NCBI RefSeq assembly: GCF_010537335.1
Contig: NZ_AP019711.1
Span: forward strand, 1 to 64,000
Direction of reading: 5' to 3'
Length of the DNA stretch: 64,000 nt
Source: Amedibacterium intestinale
GTDB taxonomy: Bacteria; Bacillota_I; Bacilli_A; Erysipelotrichales; Erysipelotrichaceae
The number at the start of each line of letters is the position of its first letter. Position 1 is the first letter of the stretch. This document shows positions 3,868 to 23,359 of this stretch, piece by piece. The notes below the pieces were generated by a model. That model did no database searches, was not told the DNA's origin, and was given only the letters and a program-made list of their open reading frames with translations. The position numbers and the translations under genes are program-made.

Positions 3868-4808
3868 AGCTGTCTATGATAATACCTTGTTATAATGAAG
3901 AAAAAAATGTAGAGTTATTTTACGAGCGAGTAAAAGAAGTGTTTGCTGATCATAATTTTGAATATGAATACATTTTTATAAATGATGGAAGCAGTGATCA
4001 GACTTATGAGGTGTTGAAGCAGTTAGCACAATTACATAAAGAATCGAATATAACTGTTCTTAATTTTTCTCGTAATTTTGGAAAAGAGAGTGCTATGTAT
4101 GCAGGATTAAAGGAATCTATTGGAGAGTATGCATTAATTATTGATGCTGATCTGCAGCAAGATCCTGCCTATGCTTTATCTATGATGGAAATATTGGATA
4201 AAAGCGAGGAGTGGGATAGTGTGGCAGCGTATCAAAAAGAACGCTTAGAAGGAAAAATATTACGTAGTTTTAAAAAGACATTTTATCATTTGATAAATAA
4301 AATCTCACAGGTAGAATTTGTAGATGGAGCAAGTGATTTTCGATTGTTGAGACGTTCTATGGTGGAAGCAATTCTTTCCTTGCCAGAAAATAATCGATTT
4401 TCAAAAGGTATTTTTTCATGGGTAGGATTTCATACTTACTATATGCCATATGATGTACATGATCGAGCAAATGGAAAATCAAGCTGGTCATTTTGGAAAT
4501 TGATGAAATATGCAATTGAAGGATTTGTATCTTTTACAACTGCACCTTTACGTCTTGCAACGATGCTTGGAATTTTGTGCTCTTTTGTTTCATTTGTGTA
4601 TCTATTTGTGGTAATTATGGAAAAGGTTTTGATGAAAATAGAAATACCTGGTTATGCAACGGTTATTTGTTTAATTCTATTGATTGGGGGTATACAGCTT
4701 TTTTGTGTAGGTATTATGGGAGAATACCTTGCAAGAACATATTTAGAGGCAAAACATCGTCCACTTTTTGTACAGAGAAATAAGATTGATTATAAAAATA
4801 TGAAATGA
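3864..4808 (+). CDS. CsbB/DPM1-like polyprenyl-phosphate glycosyltransferase
   Basis: A GT2 catalytic domain starts with the motif MIIPCYNEEKN and contains DADLQQDP (the metal-binding DxD region). Two C-terminal membrane helices follow, as in CsbB, GtrB and bacterial DPM1-like enzymes. These transfer a sugar from a nucleotide donor to undecaprenyl phosphate on the cytoplasmic face. An in-frame extension opens at 3780, but ATG 3864 has a GGAGGG ribosome site and a 4-base ATGA overlap with the YfhO gene, so the product is 314 residues. Translational coupling to YfhO supports a donor-lipid role for that enzyme. The sugar (GlcNAc in CsbB) cannot be read from sequence. Confidence 0.87.
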   Translation: MKLSMIIPCYNEEKNVELFYERVKEVFADHNFEYEYIFINDGSSDQTYEVLKQLAQLHKESNITVLNFSRNFGKESAMYAGLKESIGEYALIIDADLQQDPAYALSMMEILDKSEEWDSVAAYQKERLEGKILRSFKKTFYHLINKISQVEFVDGASDFRLLRRSMVEAILSLPENNRFSKGIFSWVGFHTYYMPYDVHDRANGKSSWSFWKLMKYAIEGFVSFTTAPLRLATMLGILCSFVSFVYLFVVIMEKVLMKIEIPGYATVICLILLIGGIQLFCVGIMGEYLARTYLEAKHRPLFVQRNKIDYKNMK

Positions 4809-4851
4809 TGGAAGGTTATTAATCATTTTATAAGATATTAAATTAGATTAT

Positions 4852-4922
4852 AAAGCAGCATTATTATATGAATTATTATTTACATATAATTTCATTATGT
4901 GATAGAATTACTCTGCTTTTTA
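4852..4922 (+). terminator. Possible weak terminator in the 130-bp gap before gtcA
   Basis: AAAGCAG and CTGCTTT enclose a long AT-rich segment and are followed by a short T-run. The loop is too large for a confident call. The gap also holds a TATAAT hexamer (4885-4890) without a recognisable -35 box. No gene is seen in the gap. Confidence 0.3.
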
Positions 4923-4938
4923 AAAGGATGTGGTATAA

Positions 4939-5364
4939 GTGGAAAAAGAATTTGAATTGAAGAAAATGTTTATAAAATATAGGGAAATCATTGTATATCT
5001 AATTGTAGGAGGAATGACGACAGTTGTTAGTTTTCTAAGTTATTTTCTATTTTCTTATATATGCAGTATAAATTATTTAGTCAGTAACTTTTTATCATGG
5101 GTATGTGCAGTAGCATTTGCCTATATAACTAATAAAATATGGGTATTTCAAAATCATAATTTTCATTTTTCGTATATAAAAAAAGAATGTATATCATTTG
5201 TGGGTTCAAGAGTAGCCACTTTGTTGATTGATATGCTTATTATGTTTGTAATGGTATCCCTGCTTCATACAAATGATTTAATTGCCAAAGTTGTTGTTCA
5301 AGTTGTAGTAACTATATTGAATTATTTGTTTAGTAAATTTTTCGTATTTAAAAATGAGAAATAA
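4939..5364 (+). CDS. gtcA: GtcA/GtrA family membrane protein (lipid-linked sugar flippase)
   Basis: This small four-helix membrane protein of 141 residues carries the GtrA-family hallmark YLIVGGMTTVVSF near its N-terminus and the paired motif ITNKIWVF in the middle. GtcA/GtrA proteins are thought to flip undecaprenyl-phosphate sugars to the outer face, where a GT-C enzyme such as YfhO uses them. It begins with GTG, preceded by an AAAGGATG ribosome site. Placed after a CsbB-like synthase and a YfhO-like transferase, it completes a three-component glycosylation set. A rho-independent terminator follows, closing this group. Confidence 0.86.
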   Translation: MEKEFELKKMFIKYREIIVYLIVGGMTTVVSFLSYFLFSYICSINYLVSNFLSWVCAVAFAYITNKIWVFQNHNFHFSYIKKECISFVGSRVATLLIDMLIMFVMVSLLHTNDLIAKVVVQVVVTILNYLFSKFFVFKNEK

Positions 5365-5528: not shown

Positions 5529-5563
5529 TATAATACAATAGATATGTTATGTGGAAAAGGAGG
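5529..5563 (+). promoter_or_regulatory. Probable -10 box and strong ribosome site for the tagGH operon
   Basis: TATAAT lies at 5529-5534. No good -35 hexamer is visible 17 bases upstream. An AAGGAGGT ribosome site at 5557-5563 fixes the tagG start at ATG 5569 rather than GTG 5551. Confidence 0.45.
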
Positions 5564-5568
5564 TACTT

Positions 5569-6387
5569 ATGTTTAAGAGTATCGCTTATGTATTGAGAGA
5601 AAATTTAACAAATGTATATAGAATTTTTTGTATTGCAAGATATGAACTTCTTGCGGATATGAGAGATTCAAAGTTTGGTCTTTTTTGGAACTTTGCATCT
5701 CCAGCTATACAAGTATTTACCTATTGGTTAATCTTTGGTATTGCATGGCATAAAAAACCAGTAGGAGGAATTGGCTATCTTCCATGGCTTGTTGTTGGTT
5801 ATGCAGCATGGTGGTTTATTCAGCCTTGTATTCAAAATGGATGCAGTGCAATTTTTTCTAAGACGAATGTAATTACAAAAATGAAGTTTCCAGTAAGTGT
5901 ATTACCAGCAACGATTTGTGTAAAAGAATTTTTTAATCATTTTTGTATGCTGATCATAACATTTGTAACTTTGGCTATATGTGGTTATTTTCCAAATATT
6001 TATTGGCTAGGCTTGATTTACTATTCTTTATGCGCTTTTGTTTTAGTAGAAGCTATATCATTAATTTTATCTGTTTTAACAATGCTTTGGAGAGATATAA
6101 GAAAACTAATTACTTCTTTAATGCGAATGTTAATGTATTTTTCTCCGGTTATTTGGGAATGTCATTTTGATAAAACAGTACCTTTTTATGAACTGTTAAA
6201 TAAAGTGATTAAACTAAATCCTATATACTATATTGTAAATGGTTATAGAGAATCTGTTTTCTATGGAAAAACATTTCTAGATCATCCTGCACAAACTTTA
6301 TATTTTTGGGTAGTTGTATTAATTTTATTTACGATTGGATGTATGTTAATGTACAAGTTTAAACGTAAGTTTATTGATTTGATTTAG
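5569..6387 (+). CDS. tagG: ABC-2 type teichoic acid/polysaccharide export permease
   Basis: The product is 272 residues with six predicted membrane segments. An amphipathic N-terminal stretch contains ARYELLADMRDSKFG, typical of TagG/TarG/Wzm permeases, and the sequence GYAAWWFIQPCI is in the first helices. The protein forms the channel through which lipid-linked wall teichoic acid is moved across the membrane. The upstream GTG at 5551 was rejected because the strong ribosome site sits between it and ATG 5569. The ATPase partner starts 13 bases downstream and tagD follows, which supports a teichoic-acid substrate over a generic O-antigen. Confidence 0.88.
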   Translation: MFKSIAYVLRENLTNVYRIFCIARYELLADMRDSKFGLFWNFASPAIQVFTYWLIFGIAWHKKPVGGIGYLPWLVVGYAAWWFIQPCIQNGCSAIFSKTNVITKMKFPVSVLPATICVKEFFNHFCMLIITFVTLAICGYFPNIYWLGLIYYSLCAFVLVEAISLILSVLTMLWRDIRKLITSLMRMLMYFSPVIWECHFDKTVPFYELLNKVIKLNPIYYIVNGYRESVFYGKTFLDHPAQTLYFWVVVLILFTIGCMLMYKFKRKFIDLI

Positions 6388-6400
6388 GTTGGTGATGTAA

Positions 6401-7243
6401 ATGTCAGAAAAGAGTCATATTGAATATGCTGTGGAAATGGAGCATGTGTCAAAAATTTATAAATTAAAGAAAAAAGATAATCAAAGCAAGCAGGGAGACG
6501 AACGTTTTTATGCTTTAAAAGATATTAATTTGAAAATAGAAAAAGGAGATGTTGTTGGTATTCTAGGAACGAATGGTTCAGGTAAATCAACGTTATCTGT
6601 TGTTTTGTCCGGAATATCTGATATAGATGAAGGAAATTTAACAATTCATGGAGAACAAGCTCTAATTTCTATTAATACAGGATTAAATCAGCAGTTGACA
6701 GGATTAGAAAATATTAATGTAAAAGGTGCTTTGATGGGATTAAGTAAGAAAAAAATCAAAGAAATTACAAATGATGTTATTGAATTTGCAGAGTTAGGGG
6801 ATTTTCTGTATCAGCCGGTAAAGAAATATTCAAGTGGTATGAAATCACGATTAGGATTTTCTATTTCTTTAGCGCTTGATCCTGATATTTTTATTGTGGA
6901 TGAAGCTTTATCTGTAGGAGATAAAGGTTTTGCGAAGAAATGTATGAATCGAATGAAAAAATTACGAGATGAAAAAAATAAGACGATTTTGTTTGTATCT
7001 CATTCTTTGCCTCAAGTTAGAGAGTTTTGTAAAACAGGACTTTGGATTGAAGGTGGAAAGCTAGTAGAAATGGGACCAGTTAATGAGGTATGTGATCATT
7101 ATTCGGAATATGTTGATAAATTAAACTCTTTATCTGATAAGGAGAAGAAAAAATTGCTGGATGAAAAATTTAATAAAAGACTTCTTCCAAAAGAGGAAAA
7201 ACAAGGTTTATGGAAGAAAGTAAAAAAGATAATTAAAGGATAG
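6401..7243 (+). CDS. tagH: Teichoic acid export ABC ATPase
   Basis: This is an ABC ATPase with Walker A GTNGSGKST, signature YSSGMKSRLGF, Walker B IFIVDEAL and the switch histidine in FVSHS. An extra short C-terminal tail of about 40 mostly charged residues follows. The insertion GDERFYALKDINLKIEKGD and the overall layout are those of the TagH/Wzt subfamily, which powers export of undecaprenyl-linked polymers through TagG. No large C-terminal substrate-binding domain is present, unlike B. subtilis TagH. The gene is 13 bases after tagG and 8 bases before tagD and is surely co-transcribed with both. Confidence 0.9.
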   Translation: MSEKSHIEYAVEMEHVSKIYKLKKKDNQSKQGDERFYALKDINLKIEKGDVVGILGTNGSGKSTLSVVLSGISDIDEGNLTIHGEQALISINTGLNQQLTGLENINVKGALMGLSKKKIKEITNDVIEFAELGDFLYQPVKKYSSGMKSRLGFSISLALDPDIFIVDEALSVGDKGFAKKCMNRMKKLRDEKNKTILFVSHSLPQVREFCKTGLWIEGGKLVEMGPVNEVCDHYSEYVDKLNSLSDKEKKKLLDEKFNKRLLPKEEKQGLWKKVKKIIKG

Positions 7244-7251
7244 GTAGATAT

Positions 7252-7638
7252 ATGAAAACGGTTATTACATATGGAACTTTTGATTTATTTCATATTGGAC
7301 ATTTAAATCTTCTAAAAAGAGCAAAGGAACTTGGAGATTATTTGATTGTTGCGGTTTCAAGTGATGAATTTAATTTAGGAAAAGGGAAAGTTTGTAAAAT
7401 TAAAGATACAGACAGAATGGCAATCGTAGAAGCTATAAAATATGTAGATAAAGTTATTTTAGAAACTAGCTGGGATCAGAAAATTGAAGATGTAAAAAAA
7501 TATGATGTTGATGTTTTTGTCATGGGTGATGATTGGAAAGGTAAATTTGATTTCTTAAAAGAATACTGTGAGGTTGTATATTTACCTAGAACAGAAGGTA
7601 TAAGTACAACACAGCTAAAAGAAGAATTAAAGAAATAA
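7252..7638 (+). CDS. tagD: Glycerol-3-phosphate cytidylyltransferase
   Basis: This compact nucleotidyltransferase of 128 residues has the HxGH motif FHIGHLNLL and the C-terminal signature RTEGISTTQL, both diagnostic for TagD/TarD. It joins CTP and sn-glycerol-3-phosphate to give CDP-glycerol and pyrophosphate in the cytoplasm. It is the only CDP-alditol synthase in the window, so the three downstream TagF-type domains presumably use CDP-glycerol. The glycerol-3-phosphate can come from GpsA at the left edge. The gene is full length and lies 8 bases after tagH and 14 bases before the first polymerase. Confidence 0.95.
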   Translation: MKTVITYGTFDLFHIGHLNLLKRAKELGDYLIVAVSSDEFNLGKGKVCKIKDTDRMAIVEAIKYVDKVILETSWDQKIEDVKKYDVDVFVMGDDWKGKFDFLKEYCEVVYLPRTEGISTTQLKEELKK

Positions 7639-7652
7639 CATGAGGTGTCAAC

Positions 7653-10600
7653 ATGGTAGCAAGTTATAAAGTTAGTGTAATTATTCCAATTTACAATGTA
7701 GCAGAATATTTAGAAGAATGTTTAGATTCCATGGTAAATCAGACAATTGACAGTCTTGAGGTTATCATGGTGGACGATGGATCAACAGATATTAGTGGAA
7801 TCATTGCGAAACGGTATGCAGAAAAATATGATAATTTCTTTTATTATCTAAAAGAAAATGGTGGTTTAGGAAATGCAAGAAATTATGGTTTACAGTTTGT
7901 AAATGGAGAATACATCGTATTTCTTGATTCTGATGATGTCGTACCAAATGATGCATATGAAGCAATGTACAACAAAGCTGTTGAAACCGGAAACGATATG
8001 GTAGTTGGTGATGTAAAACGATTTAATTCTACAAGAGTGTATAACTCAGCATTACATCGTAAAGCGTTTTTAAATGCAAAAGATTTCACAACAATTTTAG
8101 AAACACCAGAACTTATTTATGATACAACTTCATGGAATAAATTAATTAAGTTTTCTTTTTGGAAAAAACATGATTTTAAGTTTCCAGAGAAAATTTTATA
8201 TGAAGATATTCCAGTTACAATGCCATTACATTTTTATGCAAATTCTGTTTCTATAATTAATCAAGTTGTTTATTTGTGGAGAGCGCGAGATGGAGCAAAT
8301 AAGTCTATTACACAAAATCGAAAAGAGTTAAGAAACTTTACAGATCGTATTAAAATCATGAAAATGGTTGATGCATTTTATCAAGAGCATGTAAATGATG
8401 AGCGCGCATTATACATGAAAGACTATAAATGGATGGAAGTAGATTTAAAACTTTACATTCAGGAGTTGATTGATGCAGATGAAGAATATATGGATAAATT
8501 GTTTGGTATAATTCAAGATTATTTTCCTTCTTTTAGAGAAGATTCATTTAAGGATTTACCAGCTATTGATCGTATGAAATATTATTTGATAATGCATAAT
8601 CAAAAACAAAAGTTGATTGAACTATTGAAATACGAGAAAGAATGTTATCGCACTTTAAAAGTAAAAAAAGTGACAGAAAAACATGGAATTAAGTATATAG
8701 GTAATTTTCCATTTGATTACTTTCCAAAAGAGTACTATGATATGACACGTGAGTTTAACTTATGTAGAGAAACACGTGCTGTTCATAGTGCAAAGTGGGA
8801 TGGCAAAGTATTGACAATAGAAGGTTTTAATTTCATTAATCGATTAACATGTCCAAAGCAAGAATCACAGAAACTTAGTGCTTCTTTAGTTAATATTAAT
8901 ACGAATGAAAAAATTCCTCTGCCTTTAAAAGTCAAAAAGGCAAAAGGTGTTCGTGGTAAATATGGATTTAAAGCTAGTCGAAAGAATAAAAAATTTGCTT
9001 TCTTCAACTATAATTGGTCAGGGTATCAAATAGAAATCGATTTTAATCGTTTGGAAATTTTAAAAATAGCCAATGGTCAGTTGAAAGTGGAATTGTTATA
9101 TCAGCGTGATGAGCTTGAACGCGTATTTTATGTTGGCGGTCCTGTTGCGGGTGATGATCCAAGACCTTCATTTATAAACAATCAAGGGATAAATATATTG
9201 CCGTTTTATAATTTGGGTTATGACTTGTGTTTTGAATGTACGCATTTAGATGCTATTGCGGAAGAGTGTACGCTGCAGGATAATTTCTTGTTGTTAAAAG
9301 GAATGGCAAGAAAACAGGTGGCGATAAAAGCAGTTGGACAAAACAATGTCATTATTCCAGAGATAACTTATTCGAAAACAAATAAGAACTATGCTTATGA
9401 CACAAATCAAAATTTATATCATTTTCATGCAAAATTTGATTTAAATGCTTTAGAATCATCTAATACATATTCTTTAGAATATGATGATAAGAATAATATG
9501 TTTATAGATTGCTTGCATACTTCTTACTATGAACAAATACCTGGCCGCCTTATGCGAATTTCTTATCGAGAAGGTACCATAATTGATTTTCCGACTTATA
9601 AAAGTGTATTAACAAATTACACTGTAAATAATTTGAAAGTTAATTTGAAAGTTACAGTATTTGGTATAAATCGTATGGAGGAAACTGTTTCTTTAGTCTT
9701 TAAATCACAAAACAATAAGTTAACTTCTCCTAAAGTTAATGTTGAGAATATTGAATTTAAAAACAATAAGGCTATTTGCAGTTTTACAATTGATTTTAAG
9801 GATGAAGCGTTTATCAAAAACTTAATGGCTGATAAATGGACGATGTATTTGATATATCATGAAGGAAATAATGAAATTGAAGAACCTGTTTATGGAGATT
9901 TTATTTCAAACGAAGAAACGATACAAGATAAGGCTTATTCTTATAAAATAAAGGCAGAAAAAAATGTTGATTCGAGTTATGCTTATTTATTAGTTAATCG
10001 AGTTTGGAAATGGTATGAGAGTAATAAATTAAGAAGAAAAGCTATTGTATTGTTTATATATCCATTGTTTAGATTACTGCCTATAAGAAAAAATACGATT
10101 GTATTTGAAGGATGGTGGGGACAAAAATATCATTGTAATCCACGAGCTTTCTATGAATATATGAATGAGCATCATCCAGAATATAAATGTATTTGGTCGC
10201 TTAATGATGAAAGGTTACCTATTGATGGAAATGCTAAAGTTGTAAGAAGAAATTCATTAGCTTATCATAAAGTAATGGCTCGTAGTCAATATTTCGTTAA
10301 TAATGTTAATTTTGATGAATCTTATCGTAAACGAAAAGGACAAATTGAAATTCAAACTATGCATGGAACACCTTTAAAAACATTGGGATTGGATGTTCCT
10401 GGTGAATTGCCTACAGAAGAAGCTAGAAGAAAATTCATTGAAAAATGTGATCGTTGGAATTATTTAGTGGTTCAAAGCGATAAAGCATCAAAAATTACAG
10501 CAAGTTGCTATGCATTTAAAAAGCAGTTTTTGCGTACTGGTTATCCAAGAAATGATGTTTTATTTGCAAAAAATAACGAGAGTGATATTAATGCTATTAA

Positions 10601-11156
10601 ATCTAAATTAGGTATACCTGCAAATAAAAAAGTTATTTTATATGCACCGACATGGCGTGTACGCAATCGATTTGATATGCAGATTGATGTTGATAAACTA
10701 AAGGAAAGTATTTCAGACGAATATGTGTTATTATTGCGTATTCATCCATTCGCAGTACGCGGCTTGGATGAAAGTTTAATTGATAATCAGTTTATTTTTA
10801 ATGTTAGCACTTATCCTTATGTTGAAGAACTGTATTTAATTTCTGATATGGTAATAACAGACTATTCATCCGTTATGTTTGACTATGCTATTTTAAATCG
10901 TCCAATGTTATTCTTTACATATGATTTAGAGGATTACAGAGATACATTGCGTGGCTTTAATTTTGATTTTGTTGCGGAAGCACCAGGTCCTTTATTAAAA
11001 ACTTCTGATGAAGTCATTGATGCTGTTGTTAACATAACAGAGGTATCAGAAAAATATGATGAGGCATTACAGAAATTCCGTAGAAAATTTTGTGAATATG
11101 AGCATGGAAATGCATCAGAACAAATATATAGTATCGTTATGAAAGGGAATGAATAA
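7653..11156 (+). CDS. GT2 - CDP-glycerol glycerophosphotransferase fusion (TagF-like)
   Basis: This is a very large two-enzyme protein of 1167 residues. Residues about 5-250 are a GT2 glycosyltransferase, with VSVIIPIYNVAEYLEE at the start and FLDSDDVV carrying the DxD. A poorly classified middle of about 500 residues is rich in beta-type sequence. Residues about 800-1160 are a TagF-type domain with HGTPLKTLGL (His904), APTWR, RIHPF and TDYSSVMFDYA. The C-terminal domain adds glycerol phosphate from CDP-glycerol to a lipid-linked acceptor, and the GT2 domain could add a sugar to the same chain. Together they may build a repeating glycosyl-glycerophosphate polymer (inference). Confidence 0.88.
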   Translation: MVASYKVSVIIPIYNVAEYLEECLDSMVNQTIDSLEVIMVDDGSTDISGIIAKRYAEKYDNFFYYLKENGGLGNARNYGLQFVNGEYIVFLDSDDVVPNDAYEAMYNKAVETGNDMVVGDVKRFNSTRVYNSALHRKAFLNAKDFTTILETPELIYDTTSWNKLIKFSFWKKHDFKFPEKILYEDIPVTMPLHFYANSVSIINQVVYLWRARDGANKSITQNRKELRNFTDRIKIMKMVDAFYQEHVNDERALYMKDYKWMEVDLKLYIQELIDADEEYMDKLFGIIQDYFPSFREDSFKDLPAIDRMKYYLIMHNQKQKLIELLKYEKECYRTLKVKKVTEKHGIKYIGNFPFDYFPKEYYDMTREFNLCRETRAVHSAKWDGKVLTIEGFNFINRLTCPKQESQKLSASLVNINTNEKIPLPLKVKKAKGVRGKYGFKASRKNKKFAFFNYNWSGYQIEIDFNRLEILKIANGQLKVELLYQRDELERVFYVGGPVAGDDPRPSFINNQGINILPFYNLGYDLCFECTHLDAIAEECTLQDNFLLLKGMARKQVAIKAVGQNNVIIPEITYSKTNKNYAYDTNQNLYHFHAKFDLNALESSNTYSLEYDDKNNMFIDCLHTSYYEQIPGRLMRISYREGTIIDFPTYKSVLTNYTVNNLKVNLKVTVFGINRMEETVSLVFKSQNNKLTSPKVNVENIEFKNNKAICSFTIDFKDEAFIKNLMADKWTMYLIYHEGNNEIEEPVYGDFISNEETIQDKAYSYKIKAEKNVDSSYAYLLVNRVWKWYESNKLRRKAIVLFIYPLFRLLPIRKNTIVFEGWWGQKYHCNPRAFYEYMNEHHPEYKCIWSLNDERLPIDGNAKVVRRNSLAYHKVMARSQYFVNNVNFDESYRKRKGQIEIQTMHGTPLKTLGLDVPGELPTEEARRKFIEKCDRWNYLVVQSDKASKITASCYAFKKQFLRTGYPRNDVLFAKNNESDINAIKSKLGIPANKKVILYAPTWRVRNRFDMQIDVDKLKESISDEYVLLLRIHPFAVRGLDESLIDNQFIFNVSTYPYVEELYLISDMVITDYSSVMFDYAILNRPMLFFTYDLEDYRDTLRGFNFDFVAEAPGPLLKTSDEVIDAVVNITEVSEKYDEALQKFRRKFCEYEHGNASEQIYSIVMKGNE

Positions 11157-11182
11157 GCCATACAGTTTATGTATGGCTTTTC
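11156..11182 (+). terminator. Hairpin between the two GT2-TagF genes
   Basis: A perfect 9-bp stem, AGCCATACA with TGTATGGCT around a 5-nt loop, ends in TTTT. It starts on the last base of the upstream stop codon. It has the form of a terminator, possibly partial, that would lower expression of the genes after it. Confidence 0.65.
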
Positions 11183-11203
11183 CCCTATGGAAAGGATGAG
11201 AAG

Positions 11204-13792
11204 ATGAACACACCACTTGTAAGTGTAATTGTTCCCATTTATAATGTTGAACAATATTTACATCGATGTTTGAATTCATTGGCACATCAGACATTGAATG
11301 AAATTGAAATTATTGTTATTGATGATGGATCAACAGATAATAGCTTGAATATTGCTAAATCATTTGAAAAAAAATATCCAGATCAATTTATTGTTATCCA
11401 AAAAGATAATAGTGGAGTAGCTGATTCACGCAATATGGGGATTTTACAAGCTAAAGGGAAATATCTTGGCTTTGTCGATAGTGATGATTTTGTAGATGAA
11501 ACAATGTATGAAAAGCTTTTTACGAAAGCAAATCAGCAAAATGCTGATATCTCAGTTTGTGCATATTATGGATTAAATGAGAAAAATGGAACATTTCGTC
11601 CTTTTCAATTTGGACGAATGGAATTCTTTAATAAAAGTATGAAAGAAGCACCAGAATTGCTTAGAGTAAACAGTTCCTATGTTTGGCATAAACTTTTTCG
11701 TCGAGAATTTATAATTGATAATTGTATAACTTTTCCAACAGGTGTTATTTTTGAAGATATGTATTTTGCCTGGATAGCAATTTCAAAGGCGAATAAGATT
11801 GTTAAAGTTGATGAAGCACTTTATTACCATGTTTTGAGTCGTCAAGGTTCATATATGTCATCATATTCAATGAAATTATTTCATTTATTTGATGTGTTAG
11901 AGATGATACAAAATGAGTTTTTGAATGATGAAGATATGAAAAAGCATATGGATATGCTGGAATTTGTTTCAATCAAACATAGTATTATGCGACTACAGGA
12001 TCTTCCTAAATGTCCAAATCAAAAATTAAAAAAAGCAATGATTAAAAAAGTATTTGATTTCTTAGATGAGAAATATCCAAATTGGAGAACAAATAAAATT
12101 TTCTTTGAAGAACAATTTGGTAATAGGATAGGAAAAAATTTGATTAAATATAGAATGTTTTGGAATATATATCGATTTATCCCCTATAAAGGAATGCAGA
12201 TAGGGAAAAAATGTATAATGTTTATAAGTAAAGCAAAGAATCTTATAAAAAAATGGGAACATATTTCAGAATTTTCATATGCCAGAATGTGTAAAACAAA
12301 ACCTTTGATAGAAAATCGTGTACTTTTTGAATCATTTCATGGTACGACTGTTTCTGATTCTCCATTTGCAATGATGAAAGAACTGCAAGATACATCTTCG
12401 AATTATGAACTCATTATAGCAACAAAGAAAAATAAGATAAGTGAACATCAAAATCTATTAAATCATTATGGAATAAAAGCTAAGCTGGTTATTATTTACA
12501 GTAAAGATTATCAAGAAGCTTTAGCTACAAGTAAGTTTTTGGTTAATAATGTAAGTTGGCCTCCTTATTTTGCACTGCGTGAAGGACAAAAGTATATAAA
12601 TACTTGGCATGGCACCCCAATGAAAACATTAGGTAAAAAAAGACAATTAGCTATTCAGGATATGAGCAATATGCAGCGTAATTTTCTTCATTCTACACAT
12701 TTGTTGTTTCCCAATGAATATACTAAAAAAAGTATGTTTGAAGATTATAATTTAGAAAAACTGTATTGTGGAAATAGTATAGTTCAAGGATATCCTAGAA
12801 ATACTATATTTTTTAATCAGAAATCTGCTCAGGAAATTCGAAAAAAATATAATTTTAACGATAAGCAGGCAATTGCATATATGCCTACATGGCAGGGGAG
12901 TGCGAGCTATGCTATTGATATGAAAAAAATAGAAGAAGATATGTTACATTATTTGAAACATATTGATGAATTATTAAGGGATAATCAAATTATGTTTATT
13001 CATTTACATTCTCTTTTAGAAGATAAAATTGAAATTAAAGGGTTTAAACATATTCAAAAATTTCCTGAACTAGAGGATAATAATTATTTTTTAAATGCAT
13101 GTGATGCGCTCATTACAGATTACTCTAGTGTTTTATTTGATTATTCTTTAACGGGAAAGAAAATTTTATTAGACTTACATGATAAAGAAAAATATCAGAA
13201 TGAAACAGGACTGCAAATTCAACCGGAAGATTTACCATTTGCGAAAGCTTATTCACTTTCAGATATTCAGTTGTTTTTAAATGATATTAATGCGTATCAG
13301 CCTGTTGATGTAGAAAAATTTAATAGCTATAAAGGAAAATTCTTAAAGTGGGATAGCAGTAACAATACAAAAATTATTAACGATTTATTTTTTAAAGAAG
13401 ATTCAAAATGTCATTACGAAAAAGAACCAGTTCATTTGTATTTTATGAAAAAAATAATTGATGAAAGTGGATTGCCTGATCTTGATAGAGTAGCCAATGA
13501 TCCTAAAGGAGTTGCTATATTTCATAGAAATGATTTTACACCAGTTTTGCAGCGTTACTTATTACGAAAATACAATGATAAGCTTTGCTTCTTAGTAAGT
13601 GATAAGCGCATGCAATTGACGCTAAAAGAAAAAGTTTGTAAAATCTTTGGCTTTAAGTTATCTGAAAAAGCATACCAGTTAGAAATGCATCGGATATTGC
13701 CTTTTGTAGAAATAAGTCAAATTACAGATTTTCAAAAATCAGCGTATACAAGAAATTTAATTAATGGTTTACACTTGAAAGAGGTGGAATGA
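11204..13792 (+). CDS. GT2 - CDP-glycerol glycerophosphotransferase fusion, second copy
   Basis: This 862-residue protein has the same architecture as its neighbour but lacks the long middle region. Residues about 5-230 form a GT2 domain (VSVIVPIYNVEQYLH; DxD in FVDSDDFV). Residues about 370-730 are the TagF-type domain with HGTPMKTLG (His469), MPTWQG, HLHS and TDYSSVLFDYS. A further 130 residues at the C-terminus are of unclear nature. It probably polymerises or extends a glycerol-phosphate-containing glycan on undecaprenyl pyrophosphate at the inner membrane face. ATG 11204 has the GGAAAGGATGAG ribosome region. It overlaps the next gene by four bases. Confidence 0.87.
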   Translation: MNTPLVSVIVPIYNVEQYLHRCLNSLAHQTLNEIEIIVIDDGSTDNSLNIAKSFEKKYPDQFIVIQKDNSGVADSRNMGILQAKGKYLGFVDSDDFVDETMYEKLFTKANQQNADISVCAYYGLNEKNGTFRPFQFGRMEFFNKSMKEAPELLRVNSSYVWHKLFRREFIIDNCITFPTGVIFEDMYFAWIAISKANKIVKVDEALYYHVLSRQGSYMSSYSMKLFHLFDVLEMIQNEFLNDEDMKKHMDMLEFVSIKHSIMRLQDLPKCPNQKLKKAMIKKVFDFLDEKYPNWRTNKIFFEEQFGNRIGKNLIKYRMFWNIYRFIPYKGMQIGKKCIMFISKAKNLIKKWEHISEFSYARMCKTKPLIENRVLFESFHGTTVSDSPFAMMKELQDTSSNYELIIATKKNKISEHQNLLNHYGIKAKLVIIYSKDYQEALATSKFLVNNVSWPPYFALREGQKYINTWHGTPMKTLGKKRQLAIQDMSNMQRNFLHSTHLLFPNEYTKKSMFEDYNLEKLYCGNSIVQGYPRNTIFFNQKSAQEIRKKYNFNDKQAIAYMPTWQGSASYAIDMKKIEEDMLHYLKHIDELLRDNQIMFIHLHSLLEDKIEIKGFKHIQKFPELEDNNYFLNACDALITDYSSVLFDYSLTGKKILLDLHDKEKYQNETGLQIQPEDLPFAKAYSLSDIQLFLNDINAYQPVDVEKFNSYKGKFLKWDSSNNTKIINDLFFKEDSKCHYEKEPVHLYFMKKIIDESGLPDLDRVANDPKGVAIFHRNDFTPVLQRYLLRKYNDKLCFLVSDKRMQLTLKEKVCKIFGFKLSEKAYQLEMHRILPFVEISQITDFQKSAYTRNLINGLHLKEVE

Positions 13793-14904
13793 TGTCGATA
13801 CAAAAAAAAATACTTTATTTTGTTTTAAAAATTTGTTCATTATTATTACCTTTTTTCCCAATAAAAAAGAATAAAGTTACTTTTGTTACTTTAACTTCAG
13901 ATAATTTATGTTATGATTTTGCTCAAATAGATAAGGCTTTAAAGCATGAAGGCGGATATGATATTCATTATATCTTAACTACTATACATAAAACACTTTG
14001 GGGGCAATTCTCGTATTTTTTAAACTGTATTTATCAGCTATTTTCAATCAATACAAGTTCTGTGGTTATTATAAATGACAATAACTATGTGATTTCAAAT
14101 TTTAAAAGAAGAGGTGTACATGTCATTCAGATATGGCATGCGTGTGGAGCTGTAAAAAAGTTTGGTAACCAAATATCTAGAGAATATCAAATAAAAGATT
14201 ATGATACAATCTTGTGCACATCAGAAAAATGGAAACCTGTTTATGCAGAGGCATTTGGTGTTAATGAAAATCAAGTTAAAGTAACGGGTACACCACGCTC
14301 AGATTTATTATTTGATAAAAATTATTGTGAAAAATTAAGTCAGAAATTAGAATATCGATATCCTCAGCTAAAAGGGAAATATGTCGTTTTATATGCACCA
14401 ACATTTCGTGGAAATTTAGTAAAAGGATTACGGTATGAAGAAATTGATATTGAGAAAATAGCAGCTCAACTTCCGGAAAATTTTATTATTTTATATAGAA
14501 TGCATCCATTACTGAAAAATGTGATATTAGGAAAAGCAAACAATGTACTGAATGTAAGTGAAGATGATTTAAATGAACTTCTGGCAAGAGCGGATTGTTT
14601 TATATCAGATTATTCTTCTTTAATTTTTGATTATTCAATTCTAGAACGTAAGGAGATAATGTATGTACCTGATTTAGAACAATATCGAAAAACATTAGGT
14701 TTAAATATTGACTATAGTACAATTCCAGCACAGGTTTGTTTTACTGAAGATGAATTATTGAAGGCTATACTTGATGTTGATGGATGGGATAGAGAGATGG
14801 TTAGAGACTTCAAAAATGTTTATTTTAAATATCATGATTCTAAGAGTGTTGATCGTATTGTAGAATTGATACATGAATTTGTATATGGTACAAAGCAAAA
14901 TTGA
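13789..14904 (+). CDS. CDP-glycerol glycerophosphotransferase family protein (TagB/TagF-like)
   Basis: A single TagF-type domain of 371 residues, close in size to TagB. An N-terminal hydrophobic stretch (about residues 8-26) may act as a membrane patch. In place of HGTP it has QIWHACGAVKKFG, the variant typical of a TagF-like subgroup, followed by GTPRSD, APTFRG, RMHPL and SDYSSLIFDYS. It could be the primase adding the first glycerol phosphate, or a branch transferase; the sequence alone does not decide. The start overlaps the preceding stop (ATGATG after a GAGGTGG ribosome site), so translation is coupled. Confidence 0.85.
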   Translation: MMSIQKKILYFVLKICSLLLPFFPIKKNKVTFVTLTSDNLCYDFAQIDKALKHEGGYDIHYILTTIHKTLWGQFSYFLNCIYQLFSINTSSVVIINDNNYVISNFKRRGVHVIQIWHACGAVKKFGNQISREYQIKDYDTILCTSEKWKPVYAEAFGVNENQVKVTGTPRSDLLFDKNYCEKLSQKLEYRYPQLKGKYVVLYAPTFRGNLVKGLRYEEIDIEKIAAQLPENFIILYRMHPLLKNVILGKANNVLNVSEDDLNELLARADCFISDYSSLIFDYSILERKEIMYVPDLEQYRKTLGLNIDYSTIPAQVCFTEDELLKAILDVDGWDREMVRDFKNVYFKYHDSKSVDRIVELIHEFVYGTKQN

Positions 14905-14937: not shown

Positions 14938-15921
14938 ATGAAAGAGAGAAACTATTATCTTGATAATTGTAAAGTGTTTCTAATTATTTTAGTTGTTATG
15001 ACACACTTTACAGGTCCTTTTCAAAGAGTATCACAAAACTTTTTATCCTTTGCTGTTTTTACAAATGCTTTTTATATGGCAGCATTTGTATTGATTTCAG
15101 GATATTTTTCTAAAAGATATGATTTCATTAAATCAATTAAGACTTTATTGATTCCTTATTTAATAATGCAAGCTGTATGTATTTTTGTGGATATATTTAT
15201 TACCCATTCATCTAATTCATTAAGTTTTATATACCCTAAATTCACGCTTTGGTATCTTTTGTGTTTGTTTGGCTGGAGAGTTTTAACAAATTATATTGGT
15301 AAAACTTCATGGCTCATTCCTATTTCTATTTTGATATCTTTAGGTATTGGATATGTTGATGGAATTAACAAAGCTTTCTCGTTATCGCGTTTTTTCTACT
15401 TTTATCCTTTTTTTCTAAGCGGCTATTTTTTAGAAGATATTAATCGTATTTTAAAATGGAAAAAACCAATTATTATTGTGGCTTCTTTCTTGATACTATG
15501 TACTATTTTCTTTTATATGCACCAGTATGGTACTTCCTCAATAAAAGGAATGTTAGAAGGAAGTGCACCTTATTCTAAATATGGAATAAATGCTTTATAT
15601 CGTTTATTTGCATATGGATTAGCTTATCTTATGACTTTTTGTTTTGCTATGATAGTTCCTAGAAAAAAATGGTTTTTCAGCTACTTAGGTAAGAGAACGA
15701 TGAGTATATATATTTTTCATGGTGTTATTTATCAAATTATAAGTAAAGCCACTCCACTTTATGATTATATAAATAAAAGATGGGAATTAATAATTTTTAT
15801 GGTTTTCTTATTATTTCTTGTGTGGGTGCTAGGTACGAAACCATTTGTATGGTTAACTAATAAGATTTCATCTTTTCCAATAGAGCGTGTTTTTTTTAGG
15901 AAAGTAAGGGAGATAGGATAA
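14938..15921 (+). CDS. Membrane acyltransferase family 3 protein
   Basis: This polytopic protein of 327 residues opens with RNYYLDNCKVFLIILVV and MTHFTGPF, the pattern of family 3 acyltransferases (OafA/fucose 4-O-acetylase-like) in which a conserved His in the first helices is catalytic. About ten hydrophobic segments follow. These enzymes move acyl groups, usually acetyl, onto extracytoplasmic or lipid-linked sugars. Lying among teichoic acid genes, it may O-acetylate the polymer or its sugar. A good AGGAGAATT ribosome site precedes the ATG. The stop shares one base with the next start (TAATG). Confidence 0.8.
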   Translation: MKERNYYLDNCKVFLIILVVMTHFTGPFQRVSQNFLSFAVFTNAFYMAAFVLISGYFSKRYDFIKSIKTLLIPYLIMQAVCIFVDIFITHSSNSLSFIYPKFTLWYLLCLFGWRVLTNYIGKTSWLIPISILISLGIGYVDGINKAFSLSRFFYFYPFFLSGYFLEDINRILKWKKPIIIVASFLILCTIFFYMHQYGTSSIKGMLEGSAPYSKYGINALYRLFAYGLAYLMTFCFAMIVPRKKWFFSYLGKRTMSIYIFHGVIYQIISKATPLYDYINKRWELIIFMVFLLFLVWVLGTKPFVWLTNKISSFPIERVFFRKVREIG

Positions 15922-17444
15922 TGATGTTATATAAAGAAAAGTTTGTTCAATTTTGCAAGAAATTTGTACTAGGATTGACCGGAATAATTCTTATATTCCT
16001 AACATATTATAGCTTATTATCTACCAGTGTACTGGATCCTTTAAAAGTTGAAACTATTGTTTATGTAAAAGACAATATCCCATTATTAATTTTAGCTGCA
16101 TTACTATTGGGAATTGGAATTATATGTCTTGGCTCTTTATTAAAGACATGGCAACCTAATGTAGTACGTTGGAGAATACTTGTTTCGATTTTTGTTTTTA
16201 TATTAGGAATTGGGTGGATTTTTCTAAATAAGTCTCTTCCATTTGCAGATGGATTGATGATTGATCAAGCTATTGATGAATTTGCAGTTAACGATTATAG
16301 TCAACTTGCGCCAAATGGGTATTTTGGGAAATTTCCTTTTCAATTAAACTTTATGATGTTTTTACAATGTTTATATAGTTTTGTTGGAAATCATAATTAC
16401 ATTTTTTTACAGGCTCTAAATGTTGTATCATTGATAATTACAATATTACTTGTAGCGAATATTGCTGGAAGAGTATTTAAAAGTACTCATGTTGAAGTAA
16501 TTACATTACTTCTTTCAGCGTTATTTCTTCCTTTGATTTTCTATTGTTCTTTTATATATAGTACTATTTATGGACTTTTATTTTCGACCATATCGCTTTA
16601 TTTTATGATTCGTTATATGGAAACCCATAACATGAAGTATAGCTTTGGAATTATTTTGCCTTTACTTTTAGCTGTTACTCTTAAAAGCAATTATTTAATT
16701 ATATTAATAGCTATTATATGTATGTTAGTCATGGATATGATTGCAAACAAAAAAATTGCACCAGTTGTTATTATAGTATTGTTATTAATTGGACAAATGA
16801 TTCCAGGAAGACTTATTAAATCCTATTATCAAAATGCAACAGGAATGGAGATTTCAAAGGGAATTCCTAGTATCGCATGGGTGGCGATGGGAATGGAAAA
16901 TGGTCCAAAAGCACCTGGATGGTATAATAAAACAATGTTTAAAAGCTATAAAAAAGCAAAGTATAACAGTGAAGAAACAGCAGAATTAAGTAAAAAAAAT
17001 ATTACACAGAGGCTAGACTATTTTAAAGACAATCCGAATAAAGCACTTGTGTTTTATCGAGATAAAACGATTTCGCAGTGGAATGAGCCAACGTTTGAGT
17101 CTTTATGGGTTACATATCATGGGCCTCACATGAAAAAAACACCGATTTCTTCATTTCAAAAAACGATTTTTTATGGGAAATTAAATAAAGTATATTTAAT
17201 TTATACAAATTTTTACCATTTGATTATTCTGTTATTTGCGATTTTGGGTATTTATATATGTTGGAAGCGTCATACTTACGCAGTAATTTTATTTGCAGTT
17301 ATTTTTTTAGGAGGATTTTTCTTTCATACGCTGTGGGAAGCAAATTCAAAATATACTATTACGTATTTTCTTATGTTAGTACCATATGCTGCATCAGGAA
17401 TTTGCTTGTTACTGAATTTAACAAAGAAAGGGGAGGTAAAGTAG
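15921..17444 (+). CDS. Multi-pass membrane protein, probable GT-C glycosyltransferase
   Basis: This 507-residue protein has about eleven membrane segments and one acidic first outer loop containing PFADGLMIDQA, which resembles the acidic catalytic loop of PMT/GT-C transferases. A soluble stretch at about residues 300-410 breaks the helices, and the last segments are again hydrophobic. GT-C enzymes use polyprenyl-phosphate sugars outside the cell, and a CsbB-type donor synthase lies two genes downstream at 19348, so this pair may be a second decoration unit. I do not recognise a named family, so the function is inferred from topology and context. Confidence 0.6.
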   Translation: MMLYKEKFVQFCKKFVLGLTGIILIFLTYYSLLSTSVLDPLKVETIVYVKDNIPLLILAALLLGIGIICLGSLLKTWQPNVVRWRILVSIFVFILGIGWIFLNKSLPFADGLMIDQAIDEFAVNDYSQLAPNGYFGKFPFQLNFMMFLQCLYSFVGNHNYIFLQALNVVSLIITILLVANIAGRVFKSTHVEVITLLLSALFLPLIFYCSFIYSTIYGLLFSTISLYFMIRYMETHNMKYSFGIILPLLLAVTLKSNYLIILIAIICMLVMDMIANKKIAPVVIIVLLLIGQMIPGRLIKSYYQNATGMEISKGIPSIAWVAMGMENGPKAPGWYNKTMFKSYKKAKYNSEETAELSKKNITQRLDYFKDNPNKALVFYRDKTISQWNEPTFESLWVTYHGPHMKKTPISSFQKTIFYGKLNKVYLIYTNFYHLIILLFAILGIYICWKRHTYAVILFAVIFLGGFFFHTLWEANSKYTITYFLMLVPYAASGICLLLNLTKKGEVK

Positions 17445-17445
17445 T

Positions 17446-19335
17446 ATGAAAAAGATTTTTATTTTTGTAGTATCTGTATGTATGGGGTTGGGAGTATTGT
17501 TTTCTGAAAACATATTTCCAGATAAGGTACATGCTGAACAAGGGGATGGTAATTTTTCGATAAATGTCATCAGTGTCGGGAATGGGGAATCTATTCTGAT
17601 ACAATGCGGTGGTGAAAATATGCTGATAGATGCAGGATATTCCACTATAGAAGAAGAAAAAGGGAATGGTTCAGCAAATGCTTTAAGTAAATATTTAATG
17701 GAAAACGGTCAACTTAGTAACGATGAGCGTTCTCGTTTTGAAGAAGAGGTTAAACGATTAGCTGAAGAAAATCCTAACAATACCGTAACCAATTTTTTAG
17801 AAAATTTAGGTATTAAGGAAATAGACCATATGATTGCTACACATCCACATTATGATCATATTGGTGGATTTATTCAAGTTATCAAAAGATATGCAGGGGC
17901 AGATACTAAAGTTTGGTGGTCTCAGCCATTAAGTGATAATTCATATTTTGTCGCATATCAATCAATTTTAAGGGATATGTTGTTTGAAAAAGGTGCTATT
18001 GATCCATTTTATTCCTGCAACAATCCTCAACCGGGAGATTATATCATGCTGGGAAAAGGAAATGATAAAGCACGTGTTTTGTTTTTAACATCTTCAGAAA
18101 ATGATGGAGCTAGAGGAACAGAAGAAATTAATAATGAATCTTTGGTAGTTCGTGTAGATTATAAAAATACTTCTTATTTATTTACAGGAGATTTACAAAG
18201 AGAAGGACAGCTTCGATTATTAAAGAACGCTCCAAATGTTCTTTCTGACCTACAGGAAAGAGCACTTAACGGTGATAATAATTTAAAGGATTTATTAAAT
18301 GTAACAAATATTTTGGATGTTGATGTATTAAAACTACCTCATCATGGAATGTTAAATCTTGGAAATTTAGGCGGAAGTTCAAAAACTTCTGGAAATATTG
18401 AATTATTTAATGCCGCCCATCCATCAATTTCCTTAGTGTCTACGAATGGTGATTCAGGAATGAATAACTATTCTTTACCAGGAATTCGTACAAGAAGAGA
18501 TTTGAGTTATTCAGATATTTATTCAACAGCTACGAATGGAAATTTAAAAGTTACTACAGATGGAACTTCTATTTTTGTGAATGGATCACCTTTGGAAAAG
18601 CACTATCACTTAGAAAAGCCACAGAACTTTTCTGCGGATATTGTGAGTAATGGGGTTGAATTAAAGTGGAGTCCTGTTGAAAATGCACAGCAGTATCGTG
18701 TTTATTATCAAGAATCTCCAAATGATGAATGGCATTGGATTAGCAATCTATCACCAGATACTACACACTACACATTTGATGATGGTATAAAAGGAAAAAA
18801 ATATTGGTTTGTTGTTCGAGCTAGTTATTATACTGATGGTGCCTGGTATCACAGTGATGCTAATTTCTCTAATGAAATCACATATCCAGCTCCATCTAAA
18901 GAATTTTCTGGTTTTCATGCAGCTAGAGTATTCGAGAGTCCTAATGCTTCAAAATATTGGAGTTATGATCCCTATCGAGATGTATGGATGAATAGAATGA
19001 CGAAGTATAATGGAAAAGCCTTATTGTTGACTAGACAAATGGTTAAAGATGGAAATACAACCTATTATTCTGCGTATTATAATGGGAAATGGGTTGGTTA
19101 TGTAAATAGCTATGCATTAAAAAATACAGTAACTAAGGATACTTATCAGGGATGGGGAACTTATGAAGATACATTTAACACTCCAAATCCTGCCAAATAT
19201 TGGAGATATGACCCGTATAAAAATAAAAAACTGGACATAAAACGTCAATTAGCAAAACCAGATGGAAGTATGTATTATTCAGCTTACTATAAAGGTAAAT
19301 GGATAGGTTATGTGAATAGCTGGGGATTTCAATAA
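17446..19335 (+). CDS. Secreted metallo-beta-lactamase-fold protein with FnIII and GW-like repeats
   Basis: A signal peptide (residues 1-30, likely cut after VHA) precedes an MBL-fold domain of the ComEC/Pce type (about 35-350). Its metal motif is THPHYDHIGG (His133, His135, Asp137, His138), with later ligands in FTGDLQ and LPHHG. A fibronectin type III-like domain lies at about 385-480. Two C-terminal repeats (about 490-560 and 571-629) each run from a KYW.YDPY core to YYSAYY.GKW.GYVNS, resembling GW/SH3b wall-binding modules. It is probably a wall-bound phosphodiesterase or phosphoesterase. By analogy with pneumococcal Pce it may trim the teichoic polymer encoded here. The function is inferred; the domain order is seen. 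Confidence 0.78.
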   Translation: MKKIFIFVVSVCMGLGVLFSENIFPDKVHAEQGDGNFSINVISVGNGESILIQCGGENMLIDAGYSTIEEEKGNGSANALSKYLMENGQLSNDERSRFEEEVKRLAEENPNNTVTNFLENLGIKEIDHMIATHPHYDHIGGFIQVIKRYAGADTKVWWSQPLSDNSYFVAYQSILRDMLFEKGAIDPFYSCNNPQPGDYIMLGKGNDKARVLFLTSSENDGARGTEEINNESLVVRVDYKNTSYLFTGDLQREGQLRLLKNAPNVLSDLQERALNGDNNLKDLLNVTNILDVDVLKLPHHGMLNLGNLGGSSKTSGNIELFNAAHPSISLVSTNGDSGMNNYSLPGIRTRRDLSYSDIYSTATNGNLKVTTDGTSIFVNGSPLEKHYHLEKPQNFSADIVSNGVELKWSPVENAQQYRVYYQESPNDEWHWISNLSPDTTHYTFDDGIKGKKYWFVVRASYYTDGAWYHSDANFSNEITYPAPSKEFSGFHAARVFESPNASKYWSYDPYRDVWMNRMTKYNGKALLLTRQMVKDGNTTYYSAYYNGKWVGYVNSYALKNTVTKDTYQGWGTYEDTFNTPNPAKYWRYDPYKNKKLDIKRQLAKPDGSMYYSAYYKGKWIGYVNSWGFQ

Positions 19336-19347
19336 GAGGAGGAAATT

Positions 19348-20304
19348 ATGAATACGGTTCTATATTTAGTTATACCTTGTTATAACGAAGAAGAAGTACT
19401 ACATGAAACAGCACGCCAATTAAAAGAAAAAATTGAAATTATGATAAGTAAAGGAACGATTTCAAATCAAAGTCGAATTATGTTTGTTAATGATGGTTCT
19501 AAAGATAAAACTTGGAGTATCATAAAAGAATTACATAATAAAGACAGTTTGTTTTCTGGATTAAATTTATCACGTAATCGCGGGCATCAAAATGCACTTT
19601 TGGCTGGTTTGATGACAGCTAAAGATTTAAGTGATGTAACGATTTCATTAGATGCTGATTTACAAGACGATATTCATGTTATCGACCGTTTTATTGAAAA
19701 ATATCACGATGGATATGATGTTGTATATGGAGTTCGCAGTTCGCGTGCTAAAGATACTTGGTTTAAAAGAAATACAGCATTGGCATTTTATAGATTTCAG
19801 GAGAAAATGGGAGTTAATTCCGTTTACAATCATGCAGATTACAGATTAATGAGCAAACGTGCTCTAGAAGCTTTATCACAATTTAAGGAAGTAAATTTAT
19901 TTTTACGTGGGTTGGTACCGTTAGTTGGTTTTGATTCTTGTATCGTAGAATATGAAAGAAATGAGCGATTTGCTGGAGAATCAAAATATCCTTTAAAGAA
20001 AATGTTATCTTTTGCATGGGATGGAATCACATCATTCAGTATAAAGCCAATACGATTTGTAACTTTGATAGGAATTATAATATTCGTAGTTAGTATTTTA
20101 GTAACATTTTATTGTATCATTAGAAAATTGATGGGGGATACAGTAGATGGATGGACATTTTTATCTTGTTCAATATGGGTATTAGGAGGCATTCAGCTTT
20201 TATCTATTGGAATCGTTGGAGAATATATTGGAAAAATCTATAGTGAAACAAAAGCAAGACCTCGATATATAATAAAAGAAATATTAGATGAAAAAACCGT
20301 ATAG
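19348..20304 (+). CDS. Second CsbB/GtrB-like polyprenyl-phosphate glycosyltransferase
   Basis: A GT2 domain of DPM1 type (LVIPCYNEEEVLH; SLDADLQDD for metal and nucleotide binding) is followed by two C-terminal membrane helices, 318 residues in all. It is homologous in layout to the enzyme at 3864 but clearly diverged. It should load a sugar onto undecaprenyl phosphate. The preceding GT-C-like gene at 15921 is the best candidate user. The AGAGGAGG ribosome site lies 12 bases after the stop of the MBL-fold gene, so it belongs to the same operon, and a strong terminator follows. Confidence 0.86.
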   Translation: MNTVLYLVIPCYNEEEVLHETARQLKEKIEIMISKGTISNQSRIMFVNDGSKDKTWSIIKELHNKDSLFSGLNLSRNRGHQNALLAGLMTAKDLSDVTISLDADLQDDIHVIDRFIEKYHDGYDVVYGVRSSRAKDTWFKRNTALAFYRFQEKMGVNSVYNHADYRLMSKRALEALSQFKEVNLFLRGLVPLVGFDSCIVEYERNERFAGESKYPLKKMLSFAWDGITSFSIKPIRFVTLIGIIIFVVSILVTFYCIIRKLMGDTVDGWTFLSCSIWVLGGIQLLSIGIVGEYIGKIYSETKARPRYIIKEILDEKTV

Positions 20305-20486: not shown

Positions 20487-20526
20487 AGGGCTCATCACCT
20501 GTCCTAGGTGGTGGGCTCCTTTTTTT
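20487..20526 (+). terminator. Terminator hairpin inside the ISL3 left end
   Basis: A 13-bp wobble-containing stem (20488-20500 with 20506-20518, extendable by one pair) is followed by seven T residues. It points into the element and would stop outside transcription from running antisense through the transposase. The transposase stop codon lies in its loop. Confidence 0.7.
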
Positions 20527-21035
20527 CGACCATCTTTACGCTTTTGTCTTTCTCGTCGATCGCAAATTCTATGCCTTTTTCAAGGACCAACATGCATCGG
20601 TTACGGAATCGTTCCCAATTGGTATATCCGTTGGCTGCCTTGGTAATCAGCTTGACGGTTCCGTTGAGTCGTTCCATCAGTGCGTTGTTGAGCCTTTTAT
20701 ATCCGACAGTGATTTGTCCTGTCTTTCTCGAGAGCTTGTATTCGGTTTTGGCTATGTAGAAAGAATTGATGATCTCGGTTTGCCAGTTGGCTAATGTGTA
20801 ACTAAACTTGACCATTTCTTCTACATTGCTTTCTCTGAAATCGGTAATGACTTTTTTCAAAGCAGCAGGTGCCGTTTCAAGTGTGTTCGAGACATAGAAA
20901 TCCGTAAGTTCATCCTTTAATTCCCAGGCCGTGTTTATATCCGGATGAATAGATACAAGCGCATTGGCATAATCGTATGGGTTCATATATCGTTTTAGAA
21001 CCTTATTATATTCTTTTGGTCTTAAAATATCGAAA
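20504..21035 (-). pseudogene. ISL3 transposase, C-terminal fragment
   Basis: This is the second half of the ISL3 transposase, starting at FDILRPKEYNK and ending at the stop in the terminator loop. It holds the conserved RLNNALMERLNGTVKLI segment, in which a Glu of the DDE triad is expected. The continuous minus frame reading in from 21424 comes from the inserted IS3 DNA and is not part of the protein. Joining base 22346 directly to 21035 restores a 483-residue frame. No start codon or ribosome site is present, so the fragment is not expressed as an active enzyme. Confidence 0.85.
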
Positions 21036-21038
21036 AGT
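21036..21038. repeat. IS3 target duplication, left copy
   Basis: AGT here matches AGT at 22346-22348. The size was chosen because removing one copy plus the IS3 element restores the ISL3 frame. Confidence 0.7.
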
Positions 21039-21137
21039 GTGATGTTAGAATAAAAACTGGACAGTCCTAATAGAGAAACATGCATGTTTTTGATACAATT
21101 ATAATACATGTAAAAGAAGTAACATAAGGAGTAAAAA

Positions 21138-21437: not shown

Positions 21438-21457
21438 CCTCTGCTGTATATGAACAA

Positions 21458-22324: not shown

Positions 22325-22345
22325 ATGTGTCCGAATTCTTGACAT

Positions 22346-23265: not shown

Positions 23266-23359
23266 ATTGTGTCACCTCCTGATAAAGCAAGTCTTCGTAC
23301 ACCTTAACTATAAGCGAAGCAGGCATATCTGGATATACATATCGGGTTGGTCGCTGTTT

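Follow-up and report, generated by a model that had tools for sequence, protein, structure and literature searches.

The window, that is, the whole stretch of 64,000 nucleotides of Amedibacterium intestinale DNA analysed here, carries on its plus strand the genes listed below, one of which encodes a secreted MBL-fold protein.

1339..5364, plus strand: YfhO, a CsbB/PgfS-like GT2 and GtrA, a three-part extracellular glycosylation set (PF09586, PF00535, PF04138)
5551..7638, plus strand: TagG and TagH, a polymer export ABC transporter, and TagD, for CDP-glycerol synthesis (domain scans)
7653..13792, plus strand: two GT2-TagF fusion polymerases/transferases (PF00535 and PF04464)
13789..14904, plus strand: TagF3, a single-domain CDP-glycerol glycerophosphotransferase and the linkage partner of the MBL gene (PF04464, 5.8e-70)
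14938..15921, plus strand: acyltransferase-3 membrane protein, the first of the two genes that separate TagF3 from the MBL gene (PF01757)
15921..17444, plus strand: weakly PMT/GT-C-like membrane protein, directly upstream of the MBL gene (PF13231, 0.0057, under cut-off)
17446..19335, plus strand: secreted MBL-FnIII-GW protein of 629 aa (list of open reading frames, domain scans, structure model)
19348..20304, plus strand: PgfS/CsbB-like GT2, directly downstream of the MBL gene (NF047588, 1.9e-71, under its cut-off)

A PIG-L gene also stands upstream of the MBL gene, before YfhO. The locus, which totals genes for TagG, TagH and TagD and three genes with TagF domains, is of the glycerol-phosphate wall-polymer type and includes an extracellular glycosylation set. 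The preliminary description had placed the MBL gene between wall-polymer glycosyltransferase genes. It does lie in an operon of the TagG/H/D/F type with a GT2 gene downstream, but it sits close to the 3′ end of the cluster and its upstream flank is the weakly PMT-like gene; just one further glycosyltransferase gene stands between it and insertion-sequence debris. Insertion sequences lie beyond 20.5 kb. At 20504-23815, directly behind the polymer locus, an IS3/IS150-type transposase pair (21138-22324, plus strand) is flanked by two minus-strand fragments of ISL3-type transposase, which looks like the insertion of one element into another.

The open reading frame at 17446-19335 (plus strand) was confirmed with exact boundaries. 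A ribosome-site-like GGGGAGG stands 5′ of the gene, its start lies 1 nt past the stop codon of the preceding gene, and the next gene begins 12 nt 3′ of it; by this spacing, the MBL gene reads as a member of the operon. The features of the gene and its product are as follows.

17446..17535, plus strand: signal peptide, residues 1-30 (inspection of the sequence; helix 2-20 in the model; cleavage probably at VHA^EQ)
17545..18597, plus strand: ComEC/Pce-type MBL domain, residues 34-384 (VIA-align span 34-385; PF00753)
17842..17859, plus strand: metal motif II, HPHYDH, residues 133-138 (motif alignments)
18127..18141, plus strand: motif III, INNES, residues 228-232 (Asn229/Asn230 in motif alignments)
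18616..18822, plus strand: FnIII domain, residues 391-459 (PF00041, 6.3e-7; Foldseek FnIII matches)
18898..19122, plus strand: GW-like repeat 1, residues 485-559 (PF13457, above cut-off)
19123..19332, plus strand: GW-like repeat 2, residues 560-629 (score of the alignment between repeats; NF033202)

The N-terminus, MKKIFIFVVSVCMGLGVLFSENIFPDKVHA^EQ, is a signal peptide by inspection, and the structure model has a helix at residues 2-20. Pfam Lactamase_B (PF00753) matches the frame above its cut-off at 3.9e-11, and fn3 (PF00041) also passes its cut-off once the middle segment is scanned by itself. The first GW repeat barely passes the Pfam cut-off (21.4 versus 21 bits, PF13457) and the second, at 17.7 bits, falls under it, while the NCBIfam model GW_glycos_SH3 (NF033202) reports two stretches. 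The local alignment of the two repeats scores 162, compared to 31 ± 6 for shuffled sequences (maximum 63, n = 1000), and they are clearly tandem copies of one another. The signal peptide, the FnIII-like domain and the two GW-like repeats of the preliminary description are all borne out in this way, and with SH3-like GW repeats behind a signal peptide the product belongs among the GW-repeat proteins. GW and fn3 are the only C-terminal Pfam matches, and choline-binding repeats are absent. A GDPD or PhoD catalytic domain was not found, as Pfam gives the MBL domain alone and the modelled fold agrees.

An AlphaFold2 model was built from a 31-row alignment. The MBL domain is mostly confident (10-residue blocks up to pLDDT 97) with lower values in loops, the FnIII domain is acceptable, and the GW region is poorly modelled with low confidence. 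In the Foldseek ranking, Pce came second to the MBL domain of ComEC, which led the list. The same order was obtained by VIA-align, with Z 29.9 for ComEC (9IC4; 2.4 Å over 259 residues) and Z 25.7 for Pce (1WRA; 3.5 Å over 268 residues), the next best being RNase J at Z 17.4 and all others at or below that value. It was also obtained by a sequence search with a profile of five orthologs (ComEC 2.4e-25, Pce 1.6e-9). The ComEC/Rec2 model TIGR00361 of NCBIfam matches the protein at 2.2e-12, far under its cut-off. A helical insertion at residues about 70-120 (17653-17805), located after the first strands and ahead of the metal motif, is common to the five orthologs and missing from the aligned ComEC.

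The metal site was compared residue by residue with that of Pce. In addition to HPHYDH and INNES, the protein has the motifs TGD (D249) and PHHG (H299-H300), and all of these, with Asn229/Asn230, are conserved in five of five orthologs; the aligned counterparts in Pce are HTHSDH, DNSNS, GGD and NHHH. Numbered along 2BIB, the aligned Pce positions are H85, H87, D89, H90, D203 and H228-H230, in agreement with the zinc ligands of Pce (Hermoso et al. 2005). Since the six ligand positions are the same, the predicted metal site is complete by the Pce standard, and the intact HxHxDH centre of the preliminary description is upheld; a fold lacking a complete metal site, which would have spoken against it, was not what the model gave. 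An interim reading of the site as incomplete, for want of a histidine in motif III, was dropped because the aligned Pce also has asparagine there. ComEC has been described with asparagine in place of the motif III histidine of Pce (PMC8579336); the sequence alignment obtained here, at odds with that wording, puts asparagine in both. Loss of metal ligands is documented for some ComEC MBL domains (S. pneumoniae; PMC5031224), and the MBL fold might here serve only for binding, as a sensor or scaffold without catalysis, but H133, H135, D137, H138, D249, H299 and H300 are invariant among 31 relatives and in the five orthologs, with N229 nearly so among the relatives, which makes this reading very improbable.

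A profile search of 315 genomes of the source organism's order found this MBL subtype in only five (1e-147 or better; next match 1e-45): the source genome and, in another family, Longibaculum muris DSM 29487 (locus L105; genome G486), G564, G552 and G550, making two families in all. In all five genomes the setting is a teichoic-acid locus, so that the other outcome which would have counted against the preliminary description, repeats of a non-wall-binding family together with no conserved tag linkage in relatives, did not occur. TagF3 immediately precedes the MBL gene in the four relatives, with a gap of 9 or 72 nt or an overlap of 29 or 17 nt, and in the window the two are separated by the acyltransferase-3 and weakly PMT-like genes. 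As TagF3 was found in 63 of the 315 genomes, the chance that all five carriers would have it is P = 2.8e-4, a value that ignores kinship. The MBL subtype is missing from 58 of the 63 genomes bearing TagF3, including the only other genome of the genus, and the MBL gene is accessory to TagF3 loci. G563 and G564 belong to one genus. In G563 a MazF-like gene directly follows TagF3; in G564 the MazF-like gene comes only behind the MBL gene and the gene next to it, indicating that these last two form an optional two-gene unit. No gene resembling TagF3 stands within 10 kb at the other ComEC-like loci that the scan retrieved. A single-protein query returned no matches to related loci, and an alignment query was needed to find them. 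Searches of plasmids and phages by tblastn gave only MBL matches at 23-32% identity, and the GW region had no relatives in the viral sequence collection.

Among readings with a different function, the main one takes the protein for a nuclease, or a general phosphodiesterase, of the kind found as a domain in ComEC, which is secreted, stays on the wall and degrades extracellular DNA; the tag locus would then be no more than a place of insertion. In its favour, no solved structure is closer in fold or sequence than the MBL domain of ComEC, which has phosphodiesterase and nuclease activity (PMC8579336). In a quick tree of 36 rows, the window MBL groups with the four orthologs and two secreted MBLs of G562 with 100% SH-aLRT support, and neither of these two has tag genes beside it, which counts against an enzyme tied to the tag polymer. 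Both G562 proteins are large (L098 9683-12319 and L099 5296-7155); one has an acidic insertion and FnIII-like repeats and the other has Big-like repeats. Against the nuclease stand the position at TagF3 loci, kept in five genomes of two families, the lack of a match to the ComEC channel (PF03772) in the source genome, and the way in which the relatives' enzymes appear to be held, which is common to peptidoglycan hydrolases and is described below. On balance we regard it as unlikely.

In the four relatives (L095, L096, L097 and G486), the FnIII domain and GW repeats are replaced by a C-terminal type I dockerin (PF00404). The gene that follows, in four of four, encodes a protein with a signal peptide, an Ig-like and a cadherin-like (PF12733) domain and a C-terminal membrane helix. 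Pfam and NCBIfam showed neither a dockerin in the window protein nor an Ig/cadherin-like membrane protein in the gene 3′ of it. A profile of the Ig/cadherin-like protein gave 29 matches in 21 of 45 genomes. Among 24 loci examined (L239-L257 plus L105, L106, L107 and L095), a gene for a dockerin protein stands directly before the Ig/cadherin-like gene in 23, and the remaining locus runs off its contig. The six non-MBL dockerin partners tested are all peptidoglycan hydrolases, five being glucosaminidases (PF01832) and one a GH25 enzyme; conversely, 3 of 13 dockerin matches are without an Ig/cadherin-like neighbour. The source genome itself has two such pairs outside the window, a GH25-dockerin protein followed by an Ig/cadherin-like protein at G000:C1:2283692-2286411 (L250 2693-5412, plus strand), the latter stopping short of the C-terminal membrane helix, and a glucosaminidase-dockerin protein followed by an Ig/cadherin-like protein at G000:C1:1119692-1123140 (L254 1193-4641, minus strand). 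The arrangement is thus a habit of wall hydrolases in the order, the teichoic-acid MBL being one of them, and since the device is shared with peptidoglycan hydrolases, it gives an independent reason to count the MBL as an enzyme that acts on the wall.

The Ig/cadherin-like membrane protein would be the receptor of the dockerin. It is not supported as a classical cohesin, as there is no Pfam cohesin match and a profile comparison with two cohesins gave a probability of 1%; its N-terminal domain resembles Ig domains of the invasin/intimin type (Z 10.4), and a single cohesin-FnIII construct is one of those tied at Z 8.1. The source genome does contain a match to classical cohesin (1.9e-9) at G000:C1:110237-110542 (L176), in a frame of 2242 aa, which is a possible other partner for the dockerins of this genome. 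A literature search found no description of the arrangement of a dockerin gene followed by an Ig/cadherin-like gene. We consider it an even chance that in members of this order such pairs hold wall hydrolases, namely glucosaminidases, a GH25 enzyme and a teichoic-acid MBL phosphodiesterase, at the membrane, as a non-cellulosomal use of dockerins in wall remodelling, and that the window MBL has exchanged this device for FnIII and GW while keeping its place in the operon. The pairing amounts to a concrete prediction of how lytic enzymes are kept in place.

Taken together, the data make it reasonably probable that the MBL protein is a secreted, wall-retained and metal-dependent phosphodiesterase with an editing or trimming action on the glycerol-phosphate polymer that its own locus makes. 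The signal peptide would export the protein, and the two GW repeats, with FnIII as a spacer, would hold it on the wall, probably sitting on the polymer made by the neighbouring TagD, TagF and TagGH genes. The metal centre could then hydrolyse a phosphodiester of this polymer, acting on it once finished. The analysis shows the domain architecture, the predicted fold, the metal ligands at motif level, the operon context, the TagF3 linkage across five genomes and the dockerin arrangement of the relatives, whereas the catalysis, the substrate, the binding of GW to the polymer and the bond cleaved are inferred. The interpretation in the preliminary description is partly supported: its core, a polymer-editing or polymer-trimming role, is strengthened by the fold, the ligands, the tag linkage in five of five genomes and the hydrolase-type anchor of the relatives, but Pce is not the nearest relative and phosphocholine is an improbable target. 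The secreted, surface-displayed architecture and the Pce-type fold would also suit an enzyme acting outside the cell, for example on phosphodiesters of the host or diet; given the operon position and linkage, and the relatives' pairing of the MBL with the sort of membrane protein that otherwise accompanies wall hydrolases, this is quite improbable.

The main alternative as to the bond is that the MBL cuts the attachment of the polymer to peptidoglycan or lipid, releasing whole chains rather than editing substituents or chain ends. This would follow the logic of WhyD, a membrane-anchored GlpQ-type wall-polymer hydrolase for which chain release has been proposed (PMC9208761), and a membrane location, as for the peptidoglycan hydrolases, would likewise apply to the relatives' enzyme. 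The linkage, however, is to one particular glycerophosphotransferase and not to linkage-unit genes, and the sequence does not tell editing, trimming and cutting off the wall apart. We consider chain release possible but clearly the less probable. The association with TagF3 weakly suggests a writer-eraser pair, in which the MBL would remove glycerol-phosphate units added by TagF3, and this is weakly favoured over release of whole chains. LicD and Pce form such a pair for phosphocholine. To our knowledge, little is known of polymer-editing enzymes inside teichoic-acid operons beyond that pneumococcal case. If the proposal is true, the ComEC/Pce MBL fold has also been recruited to edit glycerol-phosphate polymers without phosphocholine, and the ortholog in the named strain Longibaculum muris DSM 29487 is available for deletion and wall analysis. 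The tag locus of L. muris (L063 7102-13404) has a LicD gene and, in addition, genes for a cytidylyltransferase-oxidoreductase fusion and an aminotransferase-like protein, which suggests that a phospho-substituent is made there and not in the window organism. The substrate of the MBL may therefore differ between members, since a LicD gene sits in that locus.

The closest known system by fold and sequence, the C-terminal MBL domain of the DNA-uptake nuclease ComEC, has the NN-x-S and HHG motifs in common with the window protein. In 9IC4 it reads HPDADH at motif II, compared to HPHYDH, and is fused to a membrane channel, whereas PF03772 does not match the frame at 17446-19335; the window protein also has the helical insertion and extra wall-binding domains. 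Pce/CbpE (2BIB, 1WRA) is likewise a secreted MBL with the same ligand pattern and C-terminal wall-holding repeats, but the two MBLs are 18% identical, the repeats of Pce bind choline whereas GW with FnIII, or dockerin in the relatives, occur here, and the present gene is located in the tag operon. Because LicD (PF04991) has no match in the source genome, which is 97.7% complete, phosphocholine is an unlikely substrate. The parallel with Pce drawn in the preliminary description therefore holds for the fold, the ligands and the presence of wall-type repeats, and fails for the substrate, the repeat type and the rank of nearest relative. The Listeria autolysins Ami, Auto and LygA also carry GW repeats on secreted wall enzymes, although their catalytic domains are peptidoglycan hydrolases and not MBLs. 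The GW domains of LygA bind galactosylated wall teichoic acid (PMC10335673); GW proteins can nevertheless be retained by the wall when lipoteichoic acid is missing (PMC4944223), and GW alone is therefore no proof of polymer binding. Finally, the teichoicases GlpQ, PhoD and WhyD act at the cell surface and cleave wall teichoic acid (PMC7086022, PMC9208761), as is proposed here. GlpQ and WhyD are GlpQ-type phosphodiesterases and PhoD is an iron/calcium phosphodiesterase, whereas the window enzyme would use the unrelated MBL domain and, unlike these three, is encoded inside the biosynthesis operon.
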